In this document: in pieces, positions 3,762-14,305 of the stretch
How positions within the stretch are numbered: the first letter of the stretch is position 1
How the letters are laid out: every line of letters begins with the position of its first letter
Source: Candidatus Omnitrophota bacterium
GTDB lineage: Bacteria; Omnitrophota; Koll11; Aquiviventales; Aquiviventaceae
DNA length: 15,616 nucleotides
Direction of reading: 5' to 3'
Assembly: GCA_016196415.1 (NCBI GenBank)
Contig: JACPXS010000112.1
Coordinates: forward strand, 1-15,616
The notes under the pieces: model-generated
Databases searched by the model: none
The model's input: only the letters and a program-made list of their open reading frames with translations
Told to the model about the DNA's origin: nothing
Made by a program: the position numbers and the translations under genes

Positions 3762-4442
3762 ATGTATCGCGTCCTCTTCATCACGGACGACTGGGATCGG
3801 AAAAAGCCGCTCAAGTCGGGCTTGCTGGAGCGCGGCTTTTCCCTGGCGCCGATCGCCTCAGGCGAGCTGTTCAAGGACGACTTCGCCCCGCAACCACCGG
3901 ATCTCGTGGTGGTGGATTTGGAGCGCTGCGCCACCGAAGGCGCCAAGCTCTGCCACGCCCTCAAGCGCGAGCGCGCCCTGAAGGAGCCGCCCCTCGTTCT
4001 CTTGGTGACCGAGAACCTGCTGGGTCGCATCGACTTTGGCTGGGGCGTTGACGACTACCTCACGCTGCCCGTGACGGCGACGCGGCTCGCCGAACGGCTC
4101 AACTTCCTCATCTGGAAGCTGCACCGCGTGGCACCCGCCAACGGGTTCTCCCACGGCGGCTTGGTGGTCGACTTCGAACGCTACGAAGTCCATGTGAACG
4201 GCCAGCCGGCGGACCTGACGTATAAAGAGTTTGAGCTGCTGAAGTTCCTCGTCTTGCACGCCGGCAAGCCCTTCACGCGGGAGGCCCTGCTGGATAAGGT
4301 CTGGGGGTACGACTATTACGGGGGGACCCGCACCGTGGATGTGCACGTCCGCCGCCTGCGCGCCAAGATCGAAACCGGCGGTTGCACCTACATCGAGACG
4401 GTCCGCCACGTCGGCTATAAGTTCGTCCCGCCGCCCGCCTGA
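3762..4442 (+). CDS. OmpR/PhoB-type response regulator with degenerate receiver
   Basis: A 226-residue DNA-binding regulator. Residues 1-120 are a receiver-like domain with an acidic pair D9/D10, a candidate phospho-acceptor D52 (VVVDLERC) and T83. The nearly invariant lysine of receivers is replaced by leucine (DDYLTLPV, L102), so normal phosphorylation signalling is doubtful. Residues 129-224 are a complete winged-helix domain: LTYKEFELLKFLVLHAG, then TRTVDVHVRRLRAKI as recognition helix, and GYKF in the wing. No histidine kinase gene is adjacent. The 5' end has no clear Shine-Dalgarno sequence, because a heptamer repeat array lies immediately upstream. Function is unknown; it is a candidate to bind the 11-bp repeats further right, as is the orphan regulator at 7071. 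Family assignment is firm, loss of phospho-control is inference. Confidence 0.9.
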   Translation: MYRVLFITDDWDRKKPLKSGLLERGFSLAPIASGELFKDDFAPQPPDLVVVDLERCATEGAKLCHALKRERALKEPPLVLLVTENLLGRIDFGWGVDDYLTLPVTATRLAERLNFLIWKLHRVAPANGFSHGGLVVDFERYEVHVNGQPADLTYKEFELLKFLVLHAGKPFTREALLDKVWGYDYYGGTRTVDVHVRRLRAKIETGGCTYIETVRHVGYKFVPPPA

Positions 4443-4452
4443 GTCTCCAGGC

Positions 4453-4465
4453 GGGGTCAGACCCC
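4453..4465. repeat. REP-like palindrome GGGGTCAGACCCC (solo copy)
   Basis: A 13-bp perfect palindrome around a central A, ten bases after the response-regulator stop. The same 13 bases occur at 6945-6957, and the reverse complement at 6986-6998. Such palindromes are typical of REP sequences spread by REP-associated tyrosine transposases (RAYT); no transposase is in the window. Confidence 0.7.
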
Positions 4466-4598
4466 CAAGCCCTTCACATCTCACCTTCAACGAACGAAGC
4501 CCTGGACCTCGCAACCACAGCGAAGTTATCCCAGCATACCGAACAGCAAGGGAGAGACGCCAAACACGGATGCCTCCCACAGGGCGGTCGTCGTAGCG

Positions 4599-4637
4599 CC
4601 GGGTTGTTCCGGGGATGGGGAACAGCCCGGAATTTTT
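4599..4637 (+). terminator. Rho-independent terminator after the response regulator
   Basis: CCGGGTTGTTCC (4599-4610) pairs with GGAACAGCCCGG (4619-4630) across an 8-base loop, with one G-U pair. TTTTT follows at 4633-4637. It ends transcription about 190 bases after the regulator stop. The rest of 4443-4724 holds only the solo palindrome at 4453; I see no gene in it. Confidence 0.8.
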
Positions 4638-4724
4638 CTGGCAGGTGGCATCCGGATCATTCCTCCACGGCGTAGTACCTAGTGAAGGGTCGTGAAGCGT
4701 GACCTGCGAACCGGGGAGGATGGC

Positions 4725-4988
4725 ATGAGACTCTTCGTGGTACTTCGAGGGAAAACACGGGTTCGGCTGTCTGGCAGCCGTCTGTCCAACGGCCCTCCGA
4801 CCCCGTCGCCCGCACCCACATTCTTGCTCTTGTCCGATGAGCATGGGGCCGAGCAACACAGCGACCTGCTGGCCTCCTGCTTGTTACGAGCCCTGGAGGC
4901 GGTGCACCGCAACGGGAAGTCGGCGAGCAGTCCTGATGAGAGCACACAAGTTACAAGAGACGCTGGGAACAGCCGCGAAGAGCACTGA
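4725..4988 (+). CDS. Small hypothetical ORF, doubtful
   Basis: An 87-residue ORF beginning MRLFVVLRGKTRVRLSG, with a reasonable Shine-Dalgarno sequence (GGGGAGGA, 4713-4720, four bases before ATG 4725). The middle (FLLLSDEHGAEQHSDLLASC, about 43-62) looks protein-like, but the last 20 residues are low-complexity and polar. A second small ORF in the +1 frame overlaps its end, so these may be two halves of one frameshifted gene. I recognise no family. It lies between the terminator at 4637 and the sigma-factor gene. Confidence 0.3.
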   Translation: MRLFVVLRGKTRVRLSGSRLSNGPPTPSPAPTFLLLSDEHGAEQHSDLLASCLLRALEAVHRNGKSASSPDESTQVTRDAGNSREEH

Positions 4989-5121
4989 GCAGTCGATCCC
5001 ATCGCGACTGGTGCGCCATGCGGTTGAGGTGAGGCATGTCATTCGGCGCACGGAAGATCCTGCACTCCAGCGCACCCTGCAGCAGCTCCTGAAGCAGTGC
5101 ATGATTGCCTACCATGCCTGA
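4936..5121 (+). CDS. Small hypothetical helical ORF, doubtful
   Basis: A 61-residue ORF in a different frame from the ORF at 4725, which it overlaps by about 50 bases. The segment RLVRHAVEVRHVIRRTEDPA with LQRTLQQLLKQCMIAYH reads as two amphipathic helices, which is more protein-like than random. No good ribosome binding site precedes ATG 4936. It could be the C-terminal half of the preceding ORF after a frameshift. No family is recognised. The frame is also open further upstream to 4837. Confidence 0.3.
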   Translation: MRAHKLQETLGTAAKSTEQSIPSRLVRHAVEVRHVIRRTEDPALQRTLQQLLKQCMIAYHA

Positions 5122-5193
5122 AGACAGAGGAACACCGAGGTGGGCGCCGGTTTCTGATTGCGCCCCTCGCTCTTCTATGATAGAAGGATTGGG

Positions 5194-5787
5194 ATGGGTG
5201 GTGAACGCGCTCAAGATACGGCCTCACTTCTGCAGCGCACGGCCCGCGGGGACCGCGAGGCGTTCACGTGTTTCTACGACCGCTACGCCTCCCTCGTCTT
5301 CACCTTTGCCATCCGCCTTCTGCGAGCATCATCCGATGCGGAAGATTTGTTGCAAGACGTGTTCCTGCATGTCTGGTACCGCGCTGCGACGTACGCGCCT
5401 GAGCGAGGCAGCCCTGAGGCCTGGCTCATCACCATCACGCGCAGCCGGGCGCTGGATCGCCTTCGATCGCGTCAACGACGCGAGAAACGCGTCGTGTTGT
5501 TGGAGGAGCCTGCGCAACTCGAGGAGATCGAGGGAGAGGTGCCAGCGGCGGCACCCCTTGGGGAGCGCGAGATCATCGCGGGCGCGCTGGCGCAACTCCC
5601 TGACGTGCAGCGCACCGCGCTGGAGTTGGCCTACTTCGAGGGGTTCACGCAATCAGAAATTGCGGCCCGCGTAGGCGTGCCGCTTGGGACGGTGAAGACC
5701 CGGATTCACGACGGCTTGCTCCACTTACGCAAGCAGTTCCAAGCACAAGCAGGTCGAGGGCAGGATGAATCACGACGAGTGGCTTGA
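5194..5787 (+). CDS. ECF-type RNA polymerase sigma factor (SigK-like)
   Basis: A 197-residue extracytoplasmic-function sigma factor that directs RNA polymerase to a stress regulon. Region 2 spans about 22-92, with DAEDLLQDVFLHVW (48-61) as the -10 recognition helix. After a linker, region 4 spans about 126-182, with FTQSEIAARVGVPLGTVKTR (151-170) as the helix-turn-helix that reads the -35 element. Start ATG 5194 is chosen because AGAAGGA (5182-5188) lies five bases upstream; an earlier TTG at 5158 has no such site. A TATGAT at 5176-5181 is a possible -10, but it lies too close for a normal leader. Its 3' end overlaps the anti-sigma gene by 23 bp, the usual coupling of SigK/RskA-type pairs. 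The trigger is unknown. Confidence 0.93.
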   Translation: MGGERAQDTASLLQRTARGDREAFTCFYDRYASLVFTFAIRLLRASSDAEDLLQDVFLHVWYRAATYAPERGSPEAWLITITRSRALDRLRSRQRREKRVVLLEEPAQLEEIEGEVPAAAPLGEREIIAGALAQLPDVQRTALELAYFEGFTQSEIAARVGVPLGTVKTRIHDGLLHLRKQFQAQAGRGQDESRRVA

Positions 5788-6538
5788 ACCTGTAGAAGTC
5801 TACGCCCTGGGCGCGCTTGACGGGGAAGATCTCGCCAAGTGTGAGGCGCACTTGCAGGCGGGCTGTGAACTCTGTCCGCGTCACCTCAACGAGATCCGCG
5901 AGACGCTGACGCTCATCCCGCAGTCGCTTCCCCGGCTCGAGCCTCCTGCCGCGGTGAAAACGCGGGTGCTGCAGCAGCTCCCCGCTCCCCTGCTGGCCGC
6001 GGCCGTGCTCCAACCCCGCATCCCATGGGCGGGGTGGGCGGTGGGTGTGACGGCGGTCGCGGCGCTGAGCTTCATACTGGTGATGTCGCATACGACGCAG
6101 CGGAGCGTGCAGCAAGAACTGGCGCGACGGATCGAGCTGACCATCCAGCTTCGTCATGAATTGACGAAGCTGGAGCCTCTCACGGAATTCTTAATCAATC
6201 CCAACACGCGTCTCGTGGAGCTTCGCGGCTTACCCCCGAGTCCGGGCGCAAGCGGCCGGTTGCTCTGGAATCCGGTCACCCGGGAGGGCGTTCTGCTCAC
6301 CACAGGCCTGCCCCCGATCCCGTCGGATCAGGTCTATGAGCTGTGGGCCCTGGCAGGCGCCAAGGCCATTCCCGCCGGCCTCTTCAGCATCGATGCGCAG
6401 GGCCGCGGTGTGCTGCGGGTGCCGGACCTGCCTGCACGAGAGTCCTATGACGGGTTTGCCGTCACCCTCGAGCCAGCCGGCGGAGTGCAACAACCCACCG
6501 GCGCCATGCACCTCCTCGGGCATGCGTATGCACGCTGA
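5765..6538 (+). CDS. RskA-family membrane anti-sigma factor
   Basis: A 257-residue inner-membrane protein expected to hold the upstream sigma factor inactive until a signal arrives. Residues 1-60 are the cytoplasmic sigma-binding region, beginning EVYALGALDGEDLAKCEAHL, with a zinc-binding-type motif H29-x4-C34-x2-C37. One membrane helix lies at about 88-107 (WAGWAVGVTAVAALSFILVM). A short coiled segment (110-135) and a periplasmic RskA C-terminal domain (about 145-257) follow, with the typical YELWAL (191-196) and FAVTLEPAGGVQQPTG (231-246). The start overlaps the sigma gene by 23 bp, and the end overlaps the PilZ gene start by 17 bp, so all three form one operon. Release probably involves regulated proteolysis, as in this family; no protease gene is nearby. 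Confidence 0.92.
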   Translation: MNHDEWLEPVEVYALGALDGEDLAKCEAHLQAGCELCPRHLNEIRETLTLIPQSLPRLEPPAAVKTRVLQQLPAPLLAAAVLQPRIPWAGWAVGVTAVAALSFILVMSHTTQRSVQQELARRIELTIQLRHELTKLEPLTEFLINPNTRLVELRGLPPSPGASGRLLWNPVTREGVLLTTGLPPIPSDQVYELWALAGAKAIPAGLFSIDAQGRGVLRVPDLPARESYDGFAVTLEPAGGVQQPTGAMHLLGHAYAR

Positions 6539-6994
6539 GTGGAACACGGAGAGGACCGTTCTCATCGGTGCGCTGCAGCAGGAGCGACGGCGATTTCCTC
6601 GTGTGCAGAAGACGTGGTTTGTCCACTACGCCCGCACCGAAGTGCCTGGTACTGATTGGATGGGCAGCGTGAAAGACCTAAGCATGGGGGGCGCGCGCTT
6701 CAGGACCGAAGAGGTTCTCAAGATGAGCACACCGCTCAGGATGACGTTCAACCTCCCCGTGCCCGCCTTGCGCTTGGTCCAGGGCACGATTGTCTGGCGC
6801 CATGACGTACGGCCCCACGTCAGTATGAGTACGGCGTCGCATTTGAGACCCTGAATCTACCCCAGATGAGTGTCCTGCAGGGATATCTATCGAAGCTCCT
6901 CGAGCGGGGATCGCGATTGAAGCGCGCATCCGATCCACACCCTTGGGGTCAGACCCCAAGCGGGACCTCGCCCACTTTCCGCTTTGGGGTCTGA
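6522..6994 (+). pseudogene. PilZ-domain protein, frameshifted and ending in a REP-like repeat
   Basis: The first frame (6522 or 6528 to a stop at 6854) encodes a PilZ domain, the c-di-GMP-binding module. It has RRRFPRV (RxxxR) near residues 20-30, DLSMGGARF (D-x-S-x-x-G) and a strand RLVQGTIVWRHDV. At about 6813-6830 the frame fails. The expected C-terminal strand and helix (QYEYGVAFETLNLPQMSVLQ, then GYLSKLLERG) continue from 6821 in another frame, which needs one missing base or two extra. That frame is open to TGA at 6992-6994, inside a GGGGTCTGACCCC palindrome, so the native stop has probably been replaced by repeat sequence. It overlaps the anti-sigma gene. It may be a true mutation or a sequencing error. 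As read, the protein lacks the last PilZ strand. Confidence 0.8.
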
Positions 6995-7001
6995 CCCCCC
7001 C
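6942..7001. repeat. REP-like inverted pair of GGGGTCAGACCCC palindromes
   Basis: GGGGTCAGACCCC (6945-6957, extended as CTTGGGGTC...CCCAAG) and its reverse complement (6986-6998, preceded by CTTT) form an inverted pair separated by about 28 bases. The pair resembles a bipartite REP element (BIME-like). It overlaps the shifted reading frame of the PilZ gene and ends seven bases before the 11-bp repeat array at 7008. A solo copy is at 4453. Confidence 0.75.
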
Positions 7002-7007
7002 CACGCG

Positions 7008-7062
7008 TTACCGCGATTTAACCCCTCTGTGATCTCCCTGTAACATCCCGCCGCTATCCTGG
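7008..7062 (+). promoter_or_regulatory. Tandem 11-bp direct repeats, PhoB/GlnR-like operator of the orphan regulator
   Basis: Units with exact 11-bp spacing start at 7008 (TTAC), 7019 (TAAC), 7030 (TGAT), 7041 (TAAC) and, weakly, 7052. Within them CTGTGAT, four bases, CTGTAAC (from 7027) differs from the E. coli pho-box consensus CTGTCAT-N4-CTGTCAY at only a few positions. The AC-N6-type spacing also fits actinobacterial GlnR boxes. Three bases after the 7041 unit lies TATCCT (7055-7060), a possible -10, which places the array over the -35 region as expected for an activator. The predicted start of transcription is near 7067. Confidence 0.65.
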
Positions 7063-7070
7063 CCGCCATC

Positions 7071-7400
7071 ATGCCGGTGGAGGTGATGGCGGAACCGCTC
7101 ATCCTGCGCTTTGCGGATCTCGTGGTGGACTTGGATCAGTATCGGGTGCTCCTCGGGGGCCGTCCCCTGATCCTGTCCTATCGCGAGTACGCCTTGCTGG
7201 TCTACCTCGCCGGCCGGGCCGGACAAATCGTGCACAAACGTCAACTCTTGGAAGAAGGCCTGGGGCGGCATGACCCCGGCGGGTTACGCATGGTTGATGA
7301 GCACATCCGGCATCTCAAAAGCAAGCTGGAGCGCGAGGGGCGAACGTTTATTGAACCGGTCGGAGACTCGGGGTACCGCTTTGAATTCACCGCGATGTAA
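7071..7400 (+). CDS. Orphan winged-helix DNA-binding protein (PhoB-type domain, no receiver)
   Basis: A 109-residue protein that is almost entirely one OmpR/PhoB-type effector domain: FADLVVDLDQYRVLLGGRPL beta platform, LSYREYALLVYLAGRAGQ helix, LRMVDEHIRHLKSKLE recognition helix and GYRFEF wing. It aligns along its whole length with the C-terminal half of the regulator at 3762 but has no receiver, so it cannot be phosphorylated in the usual way. ATG 7071 has no ribosome binding site. ATG 7086 follows GGTGGAGG closely and fits the predicted transcription start near 7067 better, giving 104 residues. Arrays of 11-bp repeats lie both before and just after the gene; the first unit of the downstream array contains the TAA stop. 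It is a good candidate regulator of itself and of the porin-amtB-glnB operon, but that is inference. Confidence 0.85.
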   Translation: MPVEVMAEPLILRFADLVVDLDQYRVLLGGRPLILSYREYALLVYLAGRAGQIVHKRQLLEEGLGRHDPGGLRMVDEHIRHLKSKLEREGRTFIEPVGDSGYRFEFTAM

Positions 7401-7450
7401 CACCGAATTAACATCACCGTGATACGCGTGTAACGTGACCAGGGTAGCGT
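7398..7450 (+). promoter_or_regulatory. Second 11-bp direct-repeat array, operator of the porin-amtB-glnB operon
   Basis: Units start at 7398 (TAAC), 7409 (TAAC), 7420 (TGAT) and 7431 (TAAC), each exactly 11 bases apart. The order TAAC, TGAT, TAAC from 7409 repeats that at 7019-7051; the two 33-bp stretches match at 20 positions. Three bases after the last unit, TAGCGT (7445-7450) sits where TATCCT sits in the other array, supporting both as promoters. A 10-bp palindrome GATGGCCATC (7451-7460) falls at the likely transcription start. Confidence 0.65.
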
Positions 7451-7498
7451 GATGGCCATCTGCCCAACGCGATAGGGCCAACACAAGGGGGGAGCAGG

Positions 7499-8812
7499 AT
7501 GAACAACAGGTGGGTCGTGGGGCTATGCGTGGTATGCGGCGTGCTCGGCGCGGCCATGTCGGTGCGCGCGGATGACGCGTCGATGGCAAGCGACAAAGCG
7601 GAACTTCAGGTCTTGAAAGCGCGGTTGGAAAAACTCGAGCGCAAGGTCGAAGAGCAAGAGGCGGTGGGATCAGGCGCCGCTTCAGGGAACGCGATCGTCC
7701 AGCTTCCCAGCGGCCTCCACGGAGTCCAGATGGGCGGGTTTGTGGACACCTCCCTTGGATACAACTTCAACACGCCGCAGACCCGGACTAACACGCTGCG
7801 CGTGTTTGACACGCAGTCCCAGAGCTTCATGATCAACAACGCCGAGCTGGTGGTACAGAAGCCCGTGTCTTCCGAATCGCCGCTTGGATTCAAGACGGCC
7901 CTCTTGCTTGGGACCGATGCCGAAGTCGTGGGATCGGTGACCACCGGCTTGGGCCTTGGCACCGATGAGATCGATGTGAAGGACGCCTATGTGGACTACC
8001 TGGCGCCCCTCGGCGAGGGCCTGGATGTGAAGGTCGGGAAGTTTGCGACCATGCACGGGGCGGAGGTCATCGAGTCGAAGGACGACTGGAATATCTCGCG
8101 GTCGTTCTTATTTGGGTTTGCCATCCCGTTTACGCACACCGGCGTCCGCGCCACCTACCCGGTCACGAGCTGGTTGAGCACCACCGTGGGGCTCAACAAC
8201 GGGTGGGACGTGGTGGATGACAACAACGAAGGCAAAACCCTCGAGACGTCCTTCACCATTACCCCCTCCCCGACCACCTCACTGACCGCAAACTATATGG
8301 TGGGGCCTGAACAGACCACGAGTGCCACGCAACCCGCGACCACGGGACTTGGCAGCAATAGCCACATGCGTCACCTCATTGATATCGTCGCCAGCTATCA
8401 ACCCATCGATCCGCTGCAGCTCAAGTTGAACCTCGATTATGGGGTCGAGAAAGATGGCGTGCTCTTGGGCTTTGACAACGCCAGCTGGGTTGGCCTCGCC
8501 GGGTACGCGCGGTATGCGTTGACCGATCGGTGGGCTGTCGCCACACGGACGGAATGGTTCCACGACGCCGATGGAGTCCGCACCGCGTTCAACCCCGCCG
8601 CGGTCGCCACGAACGCCATCAATGGGATTACCGGCAGGGATCTCAAGCTCTGGGAATTGACCCTGACGAGTGAGTACAAGCTGAACCCGCACCTCATCGG
8701 CCGCCTTGAGTACCGCCATGACCAGGCCAGCGAGCACGTGTTCCGCCGCCAGGACGTGGGCCAGCGGCCGTACCAAGACAGCATCGCCATGGAGTTCATC
8801 GCGCCCTTCTGA
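7499..8812 (+). CDS. Outer-membrane porin, BBP2/OmpL-like
   Basis: A 437-residue exported protein. Residues 1-24 are a signal peptide (hydrophobic VVGLCVVCGVLGAAMSV, cleavage near VRA-DD). Residues 30-53 are a short coiled coil (KAELQVLKARLEKLERKVEE), as in trimeric porins. From about residue 75 a barrel begins with GGFVDTSLGYNFNTPQ and includes the family-typical stretch VDYLAPLGEGLDVKVGKFAT. It ends MEFIAPF, with a terminal phenylalanine. This pattern matches the beta-barrel porin-2 family. A strong purine-rich ribosome site (GGGGGAG, then AGG) precedes ATG 7499. It is separated from amtB by 48 bases without a terminator, so it probably forms the outer-membrane entry for the ammonium or another nitrogen source taken up by AmtB. 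Substrate is inference. Upstream it has the 11-bp repeat operator. Confidence 0.88.
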   Translation: MNNRWVVGLCVVCGVLGAAMSVRADDASMASDKAELQVLKARLEKLERKVEEQEAVGSGAASGNAIVQLPSGLHGVQMGGFVDTSLGYNFNTPQTRTNTLRVFDTQSQSFMINNAELVVQKPVSSESPLGFKTALLLGTDAEVVGSVTTGLGLGTDEIDVKDAYVDYLAPLGEGLDVKVGKFATMHGAEVIESKDDWNISRSFLFGFAIPFTHTGVRATYPVTSWLSTTVGLNNGWDVVDDNNEGKTLETSFTITPSPTTSLTANYMVGPEQTTSATQPATTGLGSNSHMRHLIDIVASYQPIDPLQLKLNLDYGVEKDGVLLGFDNASWVGLAGYARYALTDRWAVATRTEWFHDADGVRTAFNPAAVATNAINGITGRDLKLWELTLTSEYKLNPHLIGRLEYRHDQASEHVFRRQDVGQRPYQDSIAMEFIAPF

Positions 8813-8860: not shown

Positions 8861-10426
8861 ATGGTGAAAGGCTCTTGGAGGAAATCTTGCAGCGTGTTCC
8901 TATTGGCCATGGTGGGAGCCAGTGTGATCTTGCCTGCGCTGGCGTGGGCTGAGCGCGCGCCGGACCCCGGCGGGGCCAACACGGGGATGGCGATCGACGT
9001 GCCGGCGGCCACGGCTGGTCAGCCGACGATGGGAGAACTGGCGAACGCCGTAGGCCACAACCGGGTCGCCATCAACATGATGTGGACGCTCATCACCGGC
9101 TTCCTCGTCATGTTCATGCAGGCGGGGTTTGCCATGGTGGAGACGGGGCTGACCCGCGCGAAGAACGTGGCGCATACGATGGCGATGAACTTCATGATCT
9201 ATCCGCTGGGGATGCTGGGCTTCTATTTCTGCGGATTCGCCTTCATGTTTGGAGGCTTAGGGGCGATCGGAACGATGGGGGGCTACGCCGGGCTGAACCA
9301 TGAGGCCACCCTCACCCTCTTTGGCAAATCCTTTGGGCTGTTCGGCACGAAAGGGTTTTTGCTGACCGGGGGCGCGTATGACGTCGCGGTCTTCGCGCTG
9401 TTCCTCTTCCAGATGGTGTTTATGGACACCACCGCCACGATCCCGACGGGCGCCTGTGCCGAGCGGTGGAAGTACAGCGCCTTCTTCATCTACGGCTGGT
9501 TTGTCGGCACGATCATCTACCCGATCTTTGGAAACTGGGTCTGGGGTGGGGGGTGGCTGGCGATGCTCGGCCAAACCTTCGGGCTCGGCCACGGCCACGT
9601 GGATTTTGCCGGCTCCTCCGTCGTGCACATGACCGGCGGCGTGATTGGTCTCGTCTTCGCCTGGCTGCTGGGCCCCCGCATCGGCAAGTACAACAAAGAC
9701 GGCAGCCCCAATGCGATTCCTGGGCACAGCATCCCGATGGCTATCATCGGGACGTTCATCCTGGCGTTTGGATGGTTTGGATTTAACCCCGGCTCCACCC
9801 TTGCGGGTGCGGATCTGCGCATCGCGGTCATCGCGACGAATACGATGCTCGCCTCTGCCACCGGGGCGGTGGCGGCTACGTTGTGGATGTGGTGGATCCG
9901 CACGAAGAAGCCCGATCCGAGCATGATGTGTAACGGGATGCTCGCCGGCTTGGTCGCCATTACCGCACCGTGTGCGTTCGTCAACTCCATCAGCGCGTGC
10001 ATCATTGGGTTGGTGGCCGGCGTGCTCGTCGTGGAATCCGTCTACTTCATTGAGCGGGTGCTCAAGGTCGACGACCCGGTCGGGGCCATCTCGGTGCATG
10101 GCGTCAACGGGGCCTGGGGTGTGTTGTCTCTTGGGCTGTTCGCCGACGGCACCTATGGGGATGGCTGGAACGGCGTAGCGGGTACCGTGAAAGGGCTGTT
10201 CTATGGATGCCCCTCGCAGTTCGTCGCGGAATGCATCGGGGTGCTGGCCAATTTTGTCTACGTCGGCCTGATCTCCGTGATTGTCTTCAAGTTCATCGAG
10301 ATGGTCGTGGGGCAGCGAACTGATCCCACGGTGGAGGTCCAGGGATTAGACGTCCCGGAGATGGGCGTGCCGGGCTATGTCGGGGTGAAGCTGGATAAGT
10401 TTTCTGAGACCCCGCTTTCGAAGTAA
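8861..10426 (+). CDS. amtB: Ammonium transporter AmtB
   Basis: A 521-residue ammonium channel of the Amt/Mep/Rh family. It has a signal peptide (about 1-30, ending ALAWA-E) and a polar linker, then eleven hydrophobic segments from about residue 68 to 482. Family signatures are present: MQAGFAMVETGLTRAKN (86-102), GACAERWKY (197-205), VDFAGSSVVHMTGG (247-260) and SVHGVNGAWG (411-420). These include D248 and the two pore histidines H256 and H413, equivalent to E. coli D160, H168 and H318. A Shine-Dalgarno AAGGAGG lies about nine bases before ATG 8861. The cytoplasmic tail ends in FSETPLSK. It is followed 33 bases later by a PII gene, the classic amtB-glnK arrangement in which PII blocks the channel when nitrogen is plentiful. 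Confidence 0.97.
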   Translation: MVKGSWRKSCSVFLLAMVGASVILPALAWAERAPDPGGANTGMAIDVPAATAGQPTMGELANAVGHNRVAINMMWTLITGFLVMFMQAGFAMVETGLTRAKNVAHTMAMNFMIYPLGMLGFYFCGFAFMFGGLGAIGTMGGYAGLNHEATLTLFGKSFGLFGTKGFLLTGGAYDVAVFALFLFQMVFMDTTATIPTGACAERWKYSAFFIYGWFVGTIIYPIFGNWVWGGGWLAMLGQTFGLGHGHVDFAGSSVVHMTGGVIGLVFAWLLGPRIGKYNKDGSPNAIPGHSIPMAIIGTFILAFGWFGFNPGSTLAGADLRIAVIATNTMLASATGAVAATLWMWWIRTKKPDPSMMCNGMLAGLVAITAPCAFVNSISACIIGLVAGVLVVESVYFIERVLKVDDPVGAISVHGVNGAWGVLSLGLFADGTYGDGWNGVAGTVKGLFYGCPSQFVAECIGVLANFVYVGLISVIVFKFIEMVVGQRTDPTVEVQGLDVPEMGVPGYVGVKLDKFSETPLSK

Positions 10427-10459: not shown

Positions 10460-10798
10460 ATGAAGAAGATCGAAGCGATTGTGCGACCTGAAAAAGTCGA
10501 CGAGGTGCGCAAGGCCCTCGACAAGGTTGGCTACGCTGGCGTCACGGTGACCGAAGTGCAGGGGCATGGCAAGCAAAAGGGGGTCACCCGCCAGTGGCGC
10601 GGAGATACCTACACGGTGGACTTCCTCCCGAAGATCAAGCTGGAAATCGTCGCGGGCGACGCCGACGCGGAGCAAATCCTCCAGGCAATCGCAAAAGCCG
10701 CGAAGACCGGTGACGTCGGTGACGGGAAGATCTTCGTGACGGACATCCGGGACGTCGTTCGAATCCGCACGGGCGAGCGCGGCCAAGGCGCGATCTAA
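10460..10798 (+). CDS. glnB: PII nitrogen-regulatory protein (GlnB/GlnK)
   Basis: A 112-residue PII signal protein of normal length. It binds ATP/ADP and 2-oxoglutarate and reports nitrogen state to AmtB, glutamine synthetase modification and other partners. Seen: MKKIEAIVRPEKVDEV at the N-terminus, QGHGKQKG (34-41, with Q39 for 2-oxoglutarate), the T-loop RGDTYTVDFLPK with Y51, TGDVGDGKIFV (83-93) and RIRTGERG (101-108). Y51 is the tyrosine uridylylated by GlnD in proteobacteria, so covalent control is possible. No glnD gene is in the window. The position directly after amtB suggests a GlnK role; the sequence alone does not separate GlnB from GlnK. Confidence 0.97.
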   Translation: MKKIEAIVRPEKVDEVRKALDKVGYAGVTVTEVQGHGKQKGVTRQWRGDTYTVDFLPKIKLEIVAGDADAEQILQAIAKAAKTGDVGDGKIFVTDIRDVVRIRTGERGQGAI

Positions 10799-11148: not shown

Positions 11149-11176
11149 TTGACCTGGGTAGGACGGCTGGTATACT
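11149..11176 (+). promoter_or_regulatory. Sigma70-type promoter of glnA
   Basis: TTGACC (11149-11154), a 16-base spacer and TATACT (11171-11176) form a good housekeeping promoter. Transcription would start near 11183, leaving a leader of about 65 bases. I see no sigma54 (TGGCAC-N5-TTGC) promoter and no 11-bp TAAC repeats here, so this gene seems to be controlled differently from amtB. Confidence 0.75.
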
Positions 11177-11247
11177 ACACGGGTCCTTCCCGGGGACGTC
11201 GTGAGGCCCGCACTACCAGGTTCACCCACCAACCAAGGAGGTTCTCG

Positions 11248-12780
11248 ATGGCAAGAGTGACAGTCGCTCAAGCTCGTCGGTCACCGAGCCGGGTGGCACC
11301 CAGCCGCGCGGTGAGTGCTGACGGCGCGGTGAATTCCAAGCTCACCGCACCCATTACAGAGGAGGCGGTGAAACGGGTCTGGCAGATCATCAAGCAGCAC
11401 AACATCAAGGTCGTGGACCTGAAGTTTAACGACCTGCCGGGGTTGTGGCAGCACTTCTCGATTCCCGTGGAAGAGGTGGCCCAGAGCGCCAAGGAGGGGA
11501 TCTGGGTGGACGGGATCGGGTTTGACGGCTCCTCCATCCGGGGATTCCAGAAGATCCAGGAATCCGACATGAACCTGTTTCTGGACCCGAACACCGCGGT
11601 CCTGGATCCGGTCTGTGACAGCCCGACCCTGAGCCTTGTCTGTGATATCTACGATCCGCTCACGAAAGAGCCCTACAGCCGCGATCCCCGCTACATCGCG
11701 AAGAAGGCCGAACGCTACCTGAAGAAAACCGGGATTGCGGATGTGAGCTACTGGGGGCCGGAGCCGGAGTTCTTCATCTTCGACGACATCCGGTTCGACT
11801 CGACCGAGAACTCCAGTTACTACTTCGTGGACTCGGGGGAGGGCGATTGGAACACCGGACGAGAGGAGCACCCGAACCTTGGCTACAAGTCCCGGTACAA
11901 GGAAGGGTACTTCCCGGTGCCTCCACATGATACCTTCCAGGACATCCGTAGCGAGATCATGAACACAGCGCGCGCTGCCGGGGTCCCCGTGGAGAAACAC
12001 CACCACGAGGTGGCCACCGCTGGCCAGGCGGAGATCGACATGCGCTACGCGACCCTGACCAAAATGGCCGACCACCTCATGATGCTCAAGTACGTCACCA
12101 AGAACGTCGCCCGCAAACACCACAAGGTGGCGACGTACATGCCCAAGCCGCTCTTCGGGGATAACGGCTCCGGGATGCACACCCACCAGAGCCTCGCCAA
12201 GGCGGGCGCCAACCTGTTCTTCGACAAGAACGGCTATGCGCTCATCAGCCAAATGTGCAAGTGGTATATCGGAGGCCTTCTCAGGCACGCCCCCGCCATC
12301 CTCGCGTTTGCCGCCCCAACGGTCAACTCGTATAAGCGGCTCGTGCCAGGTTTTGAAGCGCCGGTGAACCTCGCGTACTCGGCCCGTAATCGCTCGGCGA
12401 TCTGCCGGATCCCGGTCTACGTGAGCTACCCGAAGAGCAAGCGGGTGGAATTCCGCGCGCCGGATCCATCCTGCAACCCCTACATCACGTTCGCGGCCAT
12501 GCTCATGGCGGGGTTGGATGGGATCCAGAACCGGATCGATCCGGGCCAGCCAGTTGATGAGAACCTGTACGAGCTGCCGCCGGGCAAAGCGCCCAAACAG
12601 GTCCCGGGGTCGCTCGATGAGGTGCTCGACGCCCTGGAGCGCGATCATCAGTTTCTGCTCAGGGGTGATGTCTTCACGAAGGATGTCATCGAGGTGTGGT
12701 TGGAGTACAAGCGCCAGGAGATCGACAAGATCCGTCTCCGCCCACATCCGTACGAGTTCTACCTCTACTTTGACGTCTGA
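11248..12780 (+). CDS. glnA: Glutamine synthetase, type I (beta-like, adenylylation site present)
   Basis: A 510-residue enzyme that makes glutamine from glutamate, ammonium and ATP. Start ATG 11248 follows AAGGAGG (11235-11241) at six bases. Motifs: VDLKFNDLPGLWQHF (56-70), GFDGSSIRGF (91-100), GPEPEFFIF (170-178), KHHHEVATAGQAEID (250-264), KPLFGDNGSGMHTHQS (300-315), NSYKRLVPGFEAPVNLAYSA (360-379) and RAPDPSCNPY (403-412). ENLYELPPG (438-446) matches the adenylylation loop of E. coli-type GSI-beta, with Y441 as the candidate tyrosine. About 40 N-terminal residues (MARVTVAQARRSPSRVAPSR and on) are an extra basic, probably disordered extension; family members usually have about 470 residues. 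A GTG at 11368 would remove it, but its GGAGG is only two bases away. No glnE is visible here. Confidence 0.97.
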   Translation: MARVTVAQARRSPSRVAPSRAVSADGAVNSKLTAPITEEAVKRVWQIIKQHNIKVVDLKFNDLPGLWQHFSIPVEEVAQSAKEGIWVDGIGFDGSSIRGFQKIQESDMNLFLDPNTAVLDPVCDSPTLSLVCDIYDPLTKEPYSRDPRYIAKKAERYLKKTGIADVSYWGPEPEFFIFDDIRFDSTENSSYYFVDSGEGDWNTGREEHPNLGYKSRYKEGYFPVPPHDTFQDIRSEIMNTARAAGVPVEKHHHEVATAGQAEIDMRYATLTKMADHLMMLKYVTKNVARKHHKVATYMPKPLFGDNGSGMHTHQSLAKAGANLFFDKNGYALISQMCKWYIGGLLRHAPAILAFAAPTVNSYKRLVPGFEAPVNLAYSARNRSAICRIPVYVSYPKSKRVEFRAPDPSCNPYITFAAMLMAGLDGIQNRIDPGQPVDENLYELPPGKAPKQVPGSLDEVLDALERDHQFLLRGDVFTKDVIEVWLEYKRQEIDKIRLRPHPYEFYLYFDV

Positions 12781-12873: not shown

Positions 12874-12955
12874 TTACGGGAGTGGTTGCATCATGTCGCG
12901 ACAGCGCTTGCGAAGATCGTAGAGGAAAACCCCATGCGTTCACGGAGTGTGCCCC

Positions 12956-14305
12956 ATGCCCGCAGTCGCTAAACGTCCCTTGAGGAAAGACAAAGAATAC
13001 GTCTTGCGCCTGGCGAAAGAGCACGACGTCCGGTTTATCCGGCTCTGGTTCACGGATATCCTCGGTTTCCTCAAGAGCTTTGCGATCACGATCGATGAGC
13101 TGGAGCAGGCGCTGGAAGAAGGCATGGGATTTGACGGCTCCGCGATCGAAGGCTTTGCCCGTATTGATGAATCGGACATGCTGGCTCTCCCTGATCCGAA
13201 CACCTTCTGTCTGCTCCCATGGCGGCCGAAGGAAAACGCCGTCGCCCGGATGTTCTGCGATGTCACCTACCCGGGCGGCCGGCTCTTCGAGGGCGATCCG
13301 CGCTACGTGCTCAAGCGCAACCTGGCGCAGGCCGGCAGGCTCGGGTTTACCTTTTATGTGGGGCCGGAGCTGGAGTTTTTCTTCTTCAAGAGCGCTGAAT
13401 CCCCGGTGCCGCTGGATGTGGGCGGCTACTTCGACTTGACGCCGCTGGACGCCGCCTCGGACCTGCGCCGCGACATCATCCTCTCGATGGAAGAGATGGG
13501 CATTGGGATCGAATACTCCCACCACGAAGCGGCGCCCTCGCAGCACGAGATTGATTTCCGCTACACCGATGCGCTCACGATGGCCGACAACGTCATGACC
13601 TACCGGCTTGTCGTCAAGGAGATCGCGTTCAAAAACGGCGTCTACGCCAGCTTCATGCCGAAGCCGCTGGCCGATCGGAACGGCTCGGGTATGCACGTGA
13701 ACGTCTCGCTCTTCAAGAGCGATCGCAACGCCTTCTACGAAGCGAAGGATCGGCTCCGCCTGTCCAAGACCGCGAAGCAGTTTTTGGCCGGGCTCCTCAC
13801 GCACGCCCCGGAAATCACGCTGGTCCTCAACCAGTGGGTCAACTCCTACAAGCGCCTGGTGCCGGGGTATGAAGCGCCGGTCTACGTGACGTGGGCGCAG
13901 CACAACCGCTCGGATCTCATCCGGATTCCCATGTACAAGCCTCGCAAGGAGGCCGCCACGCGCATCGAACTGCGCTCGCCGGATCCGGCCTGCAATCCGT
14001 ATCTCGCCTTCAGCGTGATCCTGGCGGCCGGGCTGGAGGGGATCGAGAAAAAGTATGCGCTGCCGACGCCGACGGAGGAGAACGTGTTTGCGCTCAGCGA
14101 TGAGGAGCGCGCGCGACGGGGGATTACCCAACTGCCCGGCAGTCTGGGGGAGGCGATTGCGCTTGCGGAAGGCAGCAAGCTTCTGCGCCGGGCGCTGGGC
14201 GAGCACGTCTTCCAGTCGTTCCTGCGGAACAAGAAGATCGAGCACACCCGCTTCCGCCAGGCCCTCACCGACTACGAGCTGAAAACCTACCTGCCGCTGC
14301 TGTAA
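12956..14305 (+). CDS. glnA: Glutamine synthetase, type I (alpha-like)
   Basis: A second glutamine synthetase of 449 residues, the length of the GSI-alpha class of Firmicutes and thermophiles. Motifs: FTDILGFLKSFAIT (32-45), GFDGSAIEGFARIDESDM (58-75), GPELEFFFF (136-144), HHEAAPSQHEIDF (189-201), KPLADRNGSGMHVNVSLF (236-253), NSYKRLVPGYEAPVYVTWAQ (296-315) and RSPDPACNPYLAF (340-352). It lacks the NLYxLPP adenylylation loop of the first copy (TEENVFALSDEERA instead, 373-386). R69 in EGFAR corresponds to the arginine used for glutamine feedback inhibition in B. subtilis GlnA. Start ATG 12956 has CGGAG eight bases upstream; GTG 12947 is also in frame. The two copies are clearly divergent, not a recent duplication. 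An exported protein gene follows after 12 bases. Confidence 0.95.
   Translation: MPAVAKRPLRKDKEYVLRLAKEHDVRFIRLWFTDILGFLKSFAITIDELEQALEEGMGFDGSAIEGFARIDESDMLALPDPNTFCLLPWRPKENAVARMFCDVTYPGGRLFEGDPRYVLKRNLAQAGRLGFTFYVGPELEFFFFKSAESPVPLDVGGYFDLTPLDAASDLRRDIILSMEEMGIGIEYSHHEAAPSQHEIDFRYTDALTMADNVMTYRLVVKEIAFKNGVYASFMPKPLADRNGSGMHVNVSLFKSDRNAFYEAKDRLRLSKTAKQFLAGLLTHAPEITLVLNQWVNSYKRLVPGYEAPVYVTWAQHNRSDLIRIPMYKPRKEAATRIELRSPDPACNPYLAFSVILAAGLEGIEKKYALPTPTEENVFALSDEERARRGITQLPGSLGEAIALAEGSKLLRRALGEHVFQSFLRNKKIEHTRFRQALTDYELKTYLPLL

Follow-up and report, generated by a model that had tools for sequence, protein, structure and literature searches.

Putative GlnR-type nitrogen operators on either side of a receiver-less regulator gene in a Candidatus Omnitrophota bacterium

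Upstream of the ammonium-transport genes of a Candidatus Omnitrophota bacterium, two arrays of 11-bp direct repeats enclose a small gene for a DNA-binding domain, raising the question of which protein reads the arrays and what they control. The first-pass annotation of the window (the whole 15,616-nucleotide stretch of DNA analysed here) proposed that this receiver-less orphan binds both arrays, autoregulates itself and controls the ammonium operon by a route other than NtrC, in a nitrogen or phosphate circuit. From sequence comparisons, we consider it probable that the arrays are GlnR-type nitrogen operators, that the full-length regulator encoded at 3762 binds them and acts as their activator, and that the orphan is co-regulated and tunes the regulon without reading the arrays.

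The genes concerned all lie on the forward strand. They encode a full-length GlnR-like OmpR-family regulator with a pseudo-receiver and a winged-helix DNA-binding domain, the proposed array reader (3762–4442); the orphan, a receiver-less winged-helix protein (7071–7400); an outer-membrane porin (BBP2, 7499–8812; PF07642, 1.3e-83); the ammonium transporter AmtB (8861–10426; PF00909, 5.3e-107; TIGR00836, over cut-off); the P-II protein GlnB/GlnK (10460–10798; PF00543, 1e-33); and two glutamine synthetases, GS1 (11149–12780; TIGR00653, 1.9e-192, starting at residue 76) and the GlnA-related GS2 (12947–14305; TIGR00653, 1.3e-151). GS1 carries an N-terminal extension (11149–11380) of about 75 residues ahead of the GlnA domain, and long basic N-termini are also found on the GS1 relatives in L151 and L153. 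About 2.6 kb (4443–7006) separate the GlnR-like gene from the first array, and genes for a sigma factor of the ECF type, an anti-sigma factor of the RskA type and a PilZ-domain protein lie at 5158–6854. The order NadE, GlnR-like, orphan, porin, amtB, glnB, GS1, GS2 is found repeatedly, though varied in places and interrupted by contig breaks.

On re-reading the sequence we found the units TAAC, TGAT and TAAC at 7019/7030/7041 and 7409/7420/7431 with exact 11-bp spacing, 20 identities in 33 between the two 33-bp stretches, and the -10-like hexamers TATCCT (7055–7060) and TAGCGT (7445–7450, after the second array), all as first described. The repeats are real, but one upstream unit per array had been overlooked (GTTAC at 7007, GTAAC at 7397), so each array has four units rather than three. 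Array 1 (7007–7050, plus strand, before the orphan gene) reads GTTAC-n6-TTAAC-n6-GTGAT-n6-GTAAC-n6, and array 2 (7397–7440, plus strand, before porin-amtB-glnB) reads GTAAC-n6-TTAAC-n6-GTGAT-n6-GTAAC-n6; each is 4 × 11 bp, and 28 of 44 positions are identical between them. The unit consensus per array is GT(A/T)AC/TTAAC/GTGAT/GTAAC, followed by a TAnnnT -10 element that is kept at the same distance in relatives; among 31 aligned arrays, its columns hold T in 77% (column 49), A in 90% (column 50) and T in 90% (column 54). The orphan's stop codon, TAA (7398–7400), falls within the first unit of array 2. A consensus scan of 6800–7600 with the E. coli consensus passed no E. coli-type -35/-10 pair, which is compatible with an activator-dependent promoter.

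Some features of the surrounding sequence can be added. TATCCT ends 10 bases 5' of the orphan ATG (7071), so almost no leader is predicted for the orphan mRNA, and the array-to-start spacing of 26 bases is also seen in L002, L003, L007, L008 and L009. Two GGGGTC(A/T)GACCCC palindromes, possibly a dispersed repeat, lie just 5' of array 1 (6943–6999), with a similar palindrome 5' of the orphan in L008. A search of the window against Rfam gave nothing at the gathering threshold.

The arrays stand out clearly from the rest of the window. A 38-bp pattern with at most three mismatches matched arrays 1 and 2 only, and two matches were reached by none of 200 dinucleotide shuffles. Scored with a matrix of 29 arrays from relatives, from which the window's own two were left out, array 1 reached 49.9 and array 2 reached 55.7; the next site in the window scored 11.3, and the best of 200 first-order Markov windows under the same matrix scored 13.8. 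The model R1 also recovers both arrays, a partly circular result since R1 was built from 31 rows that include them.

Searching genome contigs with the orphan protein yielded 16 loci, 14 of them titled Omnitrophota or Omnitrophica, one Planctomycetales and one Oleiharenicola. The last (L016, E 1e-4) is not a real relative and was dropped before all counts; L013 was counted as Omnitrophota despite its title of Planctomycetales bacterium, its genome having been drawn among the phylum of G001, and the record is probably misnamed. The downstream array was present in all 16 loci (the window and the remaining 15). The upstream array was found near the orphan gene in 15 of them and further upstream, at 4832, in L001, giving 16 of 16. 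Three more orphan genomes (G171, G271 and G291) also have both arrays, the second one in G271 being weak (19.9 bits). In total, the arrays flank the orphan in 19/19 loci. A strict pattern gave 18 matches in 12 of 14 genomes, every one at the two array places, and was absent from G002 and G006; with three mismatches allowed there were 35 matches in 14/14 genomes. The reversed control gave none with either pattern.

A genome-wide motif search points to nitrogen metabolism. In 15 genomes, R1 produced 30 matches at the two array places and seven secondary matches at E ≤ 0.01, five of which precede nitrogen genes: GAF-ANTAR genes in G001, G014 and G007 (the last truncated by the contig end, with 46% over 84 residues), NirB in G006, with a Rieske protein behind it, and GS1 in G009, where the site lies between glnB and GS1. 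The other two are a site about 550 bp 5' of a moeA gene in G006 and a 27-bp partial match without a clear target in G014. Two more sites come from the relaxed pattern (three mismatches), one at a GAF-ANTAR gene in G003, the other at a type III glutamine synthetase gene in G006. Among the scanned proteins, Pfam confirmed the domains GAF, ANTAR, P-II, NIR_SIR, Rieske, GSIII and MoeA. With amtB, P-II, glutamine synthetase, NirB and GAF-ANTAR genes as its predicted targets, the regulon concerns nitrogen, in keeping with the nitrogen-control role first put forward. At L093:4985-8891 and L094:5358-8319, a GAF-ANTAR gene, an N-terminally extended P-II gene and a nitrite reductase gene stand directly under a GlnR-type array, a group that is a nitrite-assimilation cluster.

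Across 285 genomes of the phylum, R1 matches outside the window's order and its sister order had E values of about 1e-3 to 1e-2. Judged from eight fetched regions and one second region of G204, these are mostly chance; the exceptions are weak array-like matches before GS1 in G034 and before NirB in G226, and, in G102, a weak R1 match ahead of pst genes.

Control of these genes by a route other than NtrC, as originally proposed, is supported by the content of the 15 genomes, all of the following counts coming from incomplete MAGs. No protein scored over the curated NtrC cut-off in any of the 15 (best 497.6 of 558.6 bits), NtrC-family relatives being present but all below it, and the GlnD/GlnE nucleotidyltransferase domain was found in two. 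RpoN exceeded its cut-off in ten, suggesting that sigma-54 is present for other uses.

The reader of the arrays is probably the full-length 3762 protein, not the orphan. Its best PDB sequence matches, 8hih (E 4.5e-39), 8hig and 8hml, are all titled GlnR, a Rhodococcus opacus protein annotated glnR ranks first among its plasmid-sequence matches, and its identity to GlnR was 37–45% in the alignments seen. In a tree of 36 rows with few from outside (five GlnR and seven other OmpR-family regulators), the 3762 protein, the sister-order proteins and actinobacterial GlnR formed one group (97/92), within which the sister-order proteins, not the window's, were nearest to actinobacterial GlnR (98/91). 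The seven other OmpR-family regulators fell outside it, together with seven more Omnitrophota regulators. The GlnR N-terminal domain PF21695 was matched by 27 of 30 aligned 3762-family members at E ≤ 0.001, the 3762 protein itself scoring 23.6 bits, below the cut-off of 27. The receiver Asp (D52) is kept in 29/30 and the conserved Lys position is Leu in 28/30, the pattern that a pseudo-receiver should show; the extract of PMC12632262 treats GlnR as a protein of this kind. None of the 13 window proteins scanned has a kinase domain, though a kinase may be encoded elsewhere in the genome.

The DNA-binding domain agrees with this assignment. PhoB reads bases via T194, V197, R201 and R219 (extract of PMC3264566), and the equivalents in the 3762 protein (T191, V194, R198, R215) are kept in 30/30 family members, as are T, V, R and R throughout the 13 GlnR-like proteins that we compared alongside the orphans. 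Because these residues are common to PhoB, the sequence alone is also compatible with another OmpR-family reader. The original placing of the arrays among tandem 11-bp operators of the OmpR/PhoB class holds in their four-unit form, which matches the published GlnR element of two 22-bp boxes with two half-sites each (extract of PMC5826061). Several observations weigh against the GlnR-like reading: the Omnitrophota regulators outside the GlnR clade include those from G034 and G226, two genomes with weak array-like matches, the array is missing from 9/28 genomes of the window's order, the PF21695 score is below its cut-off, the tree has few outside rows, and Foldseek with the 3762 model (pTM 0.54) ranked RpaA chains first and second and GlnR third.

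In the GlnR activation complex, each of the four sites holds one of four DNA-binding domains, arranged head-to-tail (Shi 2023, as told in PMC10704036), and the four receivers assemble into a tetramer bridging RNA polymerase (extract of PMC10704036). From this published mechanism we infer binding and activation of the same kind here, with nitrogen limitation as the signal. The four head-to-tail half-sites would lie on one helix face and stop at the -35 region of a promoter that needs an activator. The 3762 protein would bind each array as four protomers, its pseudo-receiver helping RNA polymerase to transcribe under nitrogen limitation. The predicted transcription units are the orphan gene and porin-amtB-glnB, the latter transcript probably reading on into both glutamine synthetases, and the orphan would modulate the regulon through contacts with polymerase/sigma or GlnR.

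Where, then, does the orphan belong? In the sister order (the order of G128), the array is present in 8/11 genomes and precedes porin-amtB-glnB in 8/8, without the orphan gene on the fetched stretches. The GlnR-like gene lies on the fetched stretch in six of the eight, and a further array stands between glnB and GS1 in six, two of which (G128 and G255) have only a partial one. Run against these eight stretches, the orphan query matched nothing but the GlnR-like gene itself, and the 285-genome survey, in which the orphan was found in eight genomes at E ≤ 1e-25, likewise lacked it in G074, G080, G128 and G255. The window's order has the array in 19/28 genomes, 18 of them with the orphan; in G312, of the same order, the arrangement is GlnR-like, array, amtB, and the 7 kb fetched contain no orphan. 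These arrays with no orphan beside them on the stretches examined suggest that the operator is probably older, the orphan having been inserted later together with its own array copy.

The orphan gene encodes a DNA-binding domain only, as the first-pass annotation stated: the product has 109 aa, matches PF00486 (1.6e-14) and is modelled by AlphaFold as a complete winged helix (pLDDT 88.8). A database search that admitted only similar lengths gave 497 matches at E ≤ 0.001, and the orphans group as a single clade in a tree built on few columns. In the 19 orphans, the position of PhoB T194 is occupied by M (14), V (three), T (one) or A (one), that of V197, central in the recognition helix, by Glu in all 19, that of R201 by H (16), S (two) or Y (one), and that of R219, the wing Arg, never by Arg. 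The PhoB set T, V, R, R is thus retained in 1/19, 0/19, 0/19 and 0/19, respectively, and Arg stands at the last reading position in 1/35 close homologues. The most constant stretch is residues 57–68 (R-x-LLEEGLGRHD, alpha2/loop), with E61, G63, G65, R66, H67 and D68 invariant in 19/19; in PhoB-type proteins the matching region includes the transactivation loop. Changed reading residues together with a frozen alpha2/loop make it most likely that the orphan contacts polymerase/sigma or GlnR. It is probably a co-regulated modulator under GlnR-like control that acts mainly via protein contacts; alternatively, it may bind DNA with altered specificity. We suggest tentatively that it is a built-in governor that gave up canonical base reading and docks on sigma/RNA polymerase or on the GlnR DNA-binding domains, capping ammonium uptake; the orphan would then be a new kind of regulator part.

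Alternatively, both proteins might share or compete for the arrays, with the GlnR-like protein activating and the receiver-less orphan occupying half-sites to damp expression as negative feedback. The orphan does carry its own operator copy, and a protein lacking a receiver could break the polymerase-bridging receiver tetramer of GlnR described in the extract of PMC10704036. However, its reading residues are changed, and the GTGAT/GTCAT third unit is not tied to its presence, so we regard this as doubtful. That third unit had been considered as a mark of orphan binding and was rejected, the orphan-less G312, G296 and G300 having the same change.

The original model, in which the orphan alone reads both arrays, appears unlikely. 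It would account for the position of the orphan gene between two arrays in each of the 19 loci, and the complete fold, with GlnR DNA-binding domains as the closest solved sequences, is what a DNA-binding regulator would have. Against this, the array occurs in eight sister-order genomes and G312 whose fetched stretches contain no orphan, and all four PhoB reading residues are changed in the orphans, down to the last-position Arg. Moreover, the KdpE DNA-binding domain in isolation can bind half-sites yet fails to promote expression (extract of PMC3264566). Of the proposed autoregulation, what remains is that the orphan has its own array; it is most likely controlled by the upstream GlnR-like 3762 protein, which keeps all four residues.

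Phosphate control, with PhoB reading the arrays as Pho boxes, has the same tandem 11-bp geometry and the PhoB-like base contacts of the 3762 protein in its favour, but was rejected as highly improbable, since the array targets are nitrogen genes and pstS in the same genomes carries a different array. PstS (PF12849) was found in 7/15 genomes, and by eye an 11-bp array of (C/T)TTACA half-sites lies upstream in six of the seven regions (L199–L205), missing from L203 and with only two clean units in L204. The best site of each of the seven regions scored between -0.4 and -20.4 with the matrix of all 31 arrays, compared with 33 to 56 for the nitrogen arrays under the 29-array matrix built from those arrays. 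Two operator codes that closely resemble each other thus occur side by side in one genome, and the weak match before the G102 pst genes shows that low-scoring matches can cross over and be Pho boxes.

GlnR-type control has been described for actinomycetes, and among open-licence papers we found none naming both Omnitrophota and GlnR, which does not prove their absence. If the GlnR-type assignment is correct, a phylum reached here only through MAGs displays the whole module: the regulator, its operator, and the amtB, P-II and glutamine synthetase genes. This module would offer a natural comparison for studying how GlnR pseudo-receivers sense nitrogen, and its receiver-less companion a means of asking which part of the activation complex is important.

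Firmicutes GlnR belongs to a different family, and the closest known system is actinobacterial GlnR (S. coelicolor amtB and glnA; complex 8hih), also an OmpR-type pseudo-receiver protein with no adjoining kinase and with amtB, P-II, glutamine synthetase and nitrite reductase as targets. As far as the extracts of PMC5826061 and PMC10704036 (Table 2) go, its operators likewise have four 11-bp gTnAC-like half-sites with a deviant third, the a2 site of S. coelicolor amtB being atypical and dispensable (PMC5826061). The present system differs in belonging to a candidate phylum, in having an outer-membrane porin as the first gene of the amtB operon, in b sites that read TTAAC/GTAAC rather than GaAAc, and in an extra receiver-less protein with its own operator. 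PhoB and the Pho box share the tandem 11-bp direct repeats 5' of the -10, the head-to-tail winged helices and the reading residues of the 3762 protein, whereas the half-site sequence and regulon differ and Pho-type arrays lie at pstS in the same genomes. Like the isolated KdpE DNA-binding domain (extract of PMC3264566), the orphan is a winged-helix domain only, but it is a natural gene, confined to one order here, with its reading residues replaced and its LEEGLGRHD loop nearly invariant.
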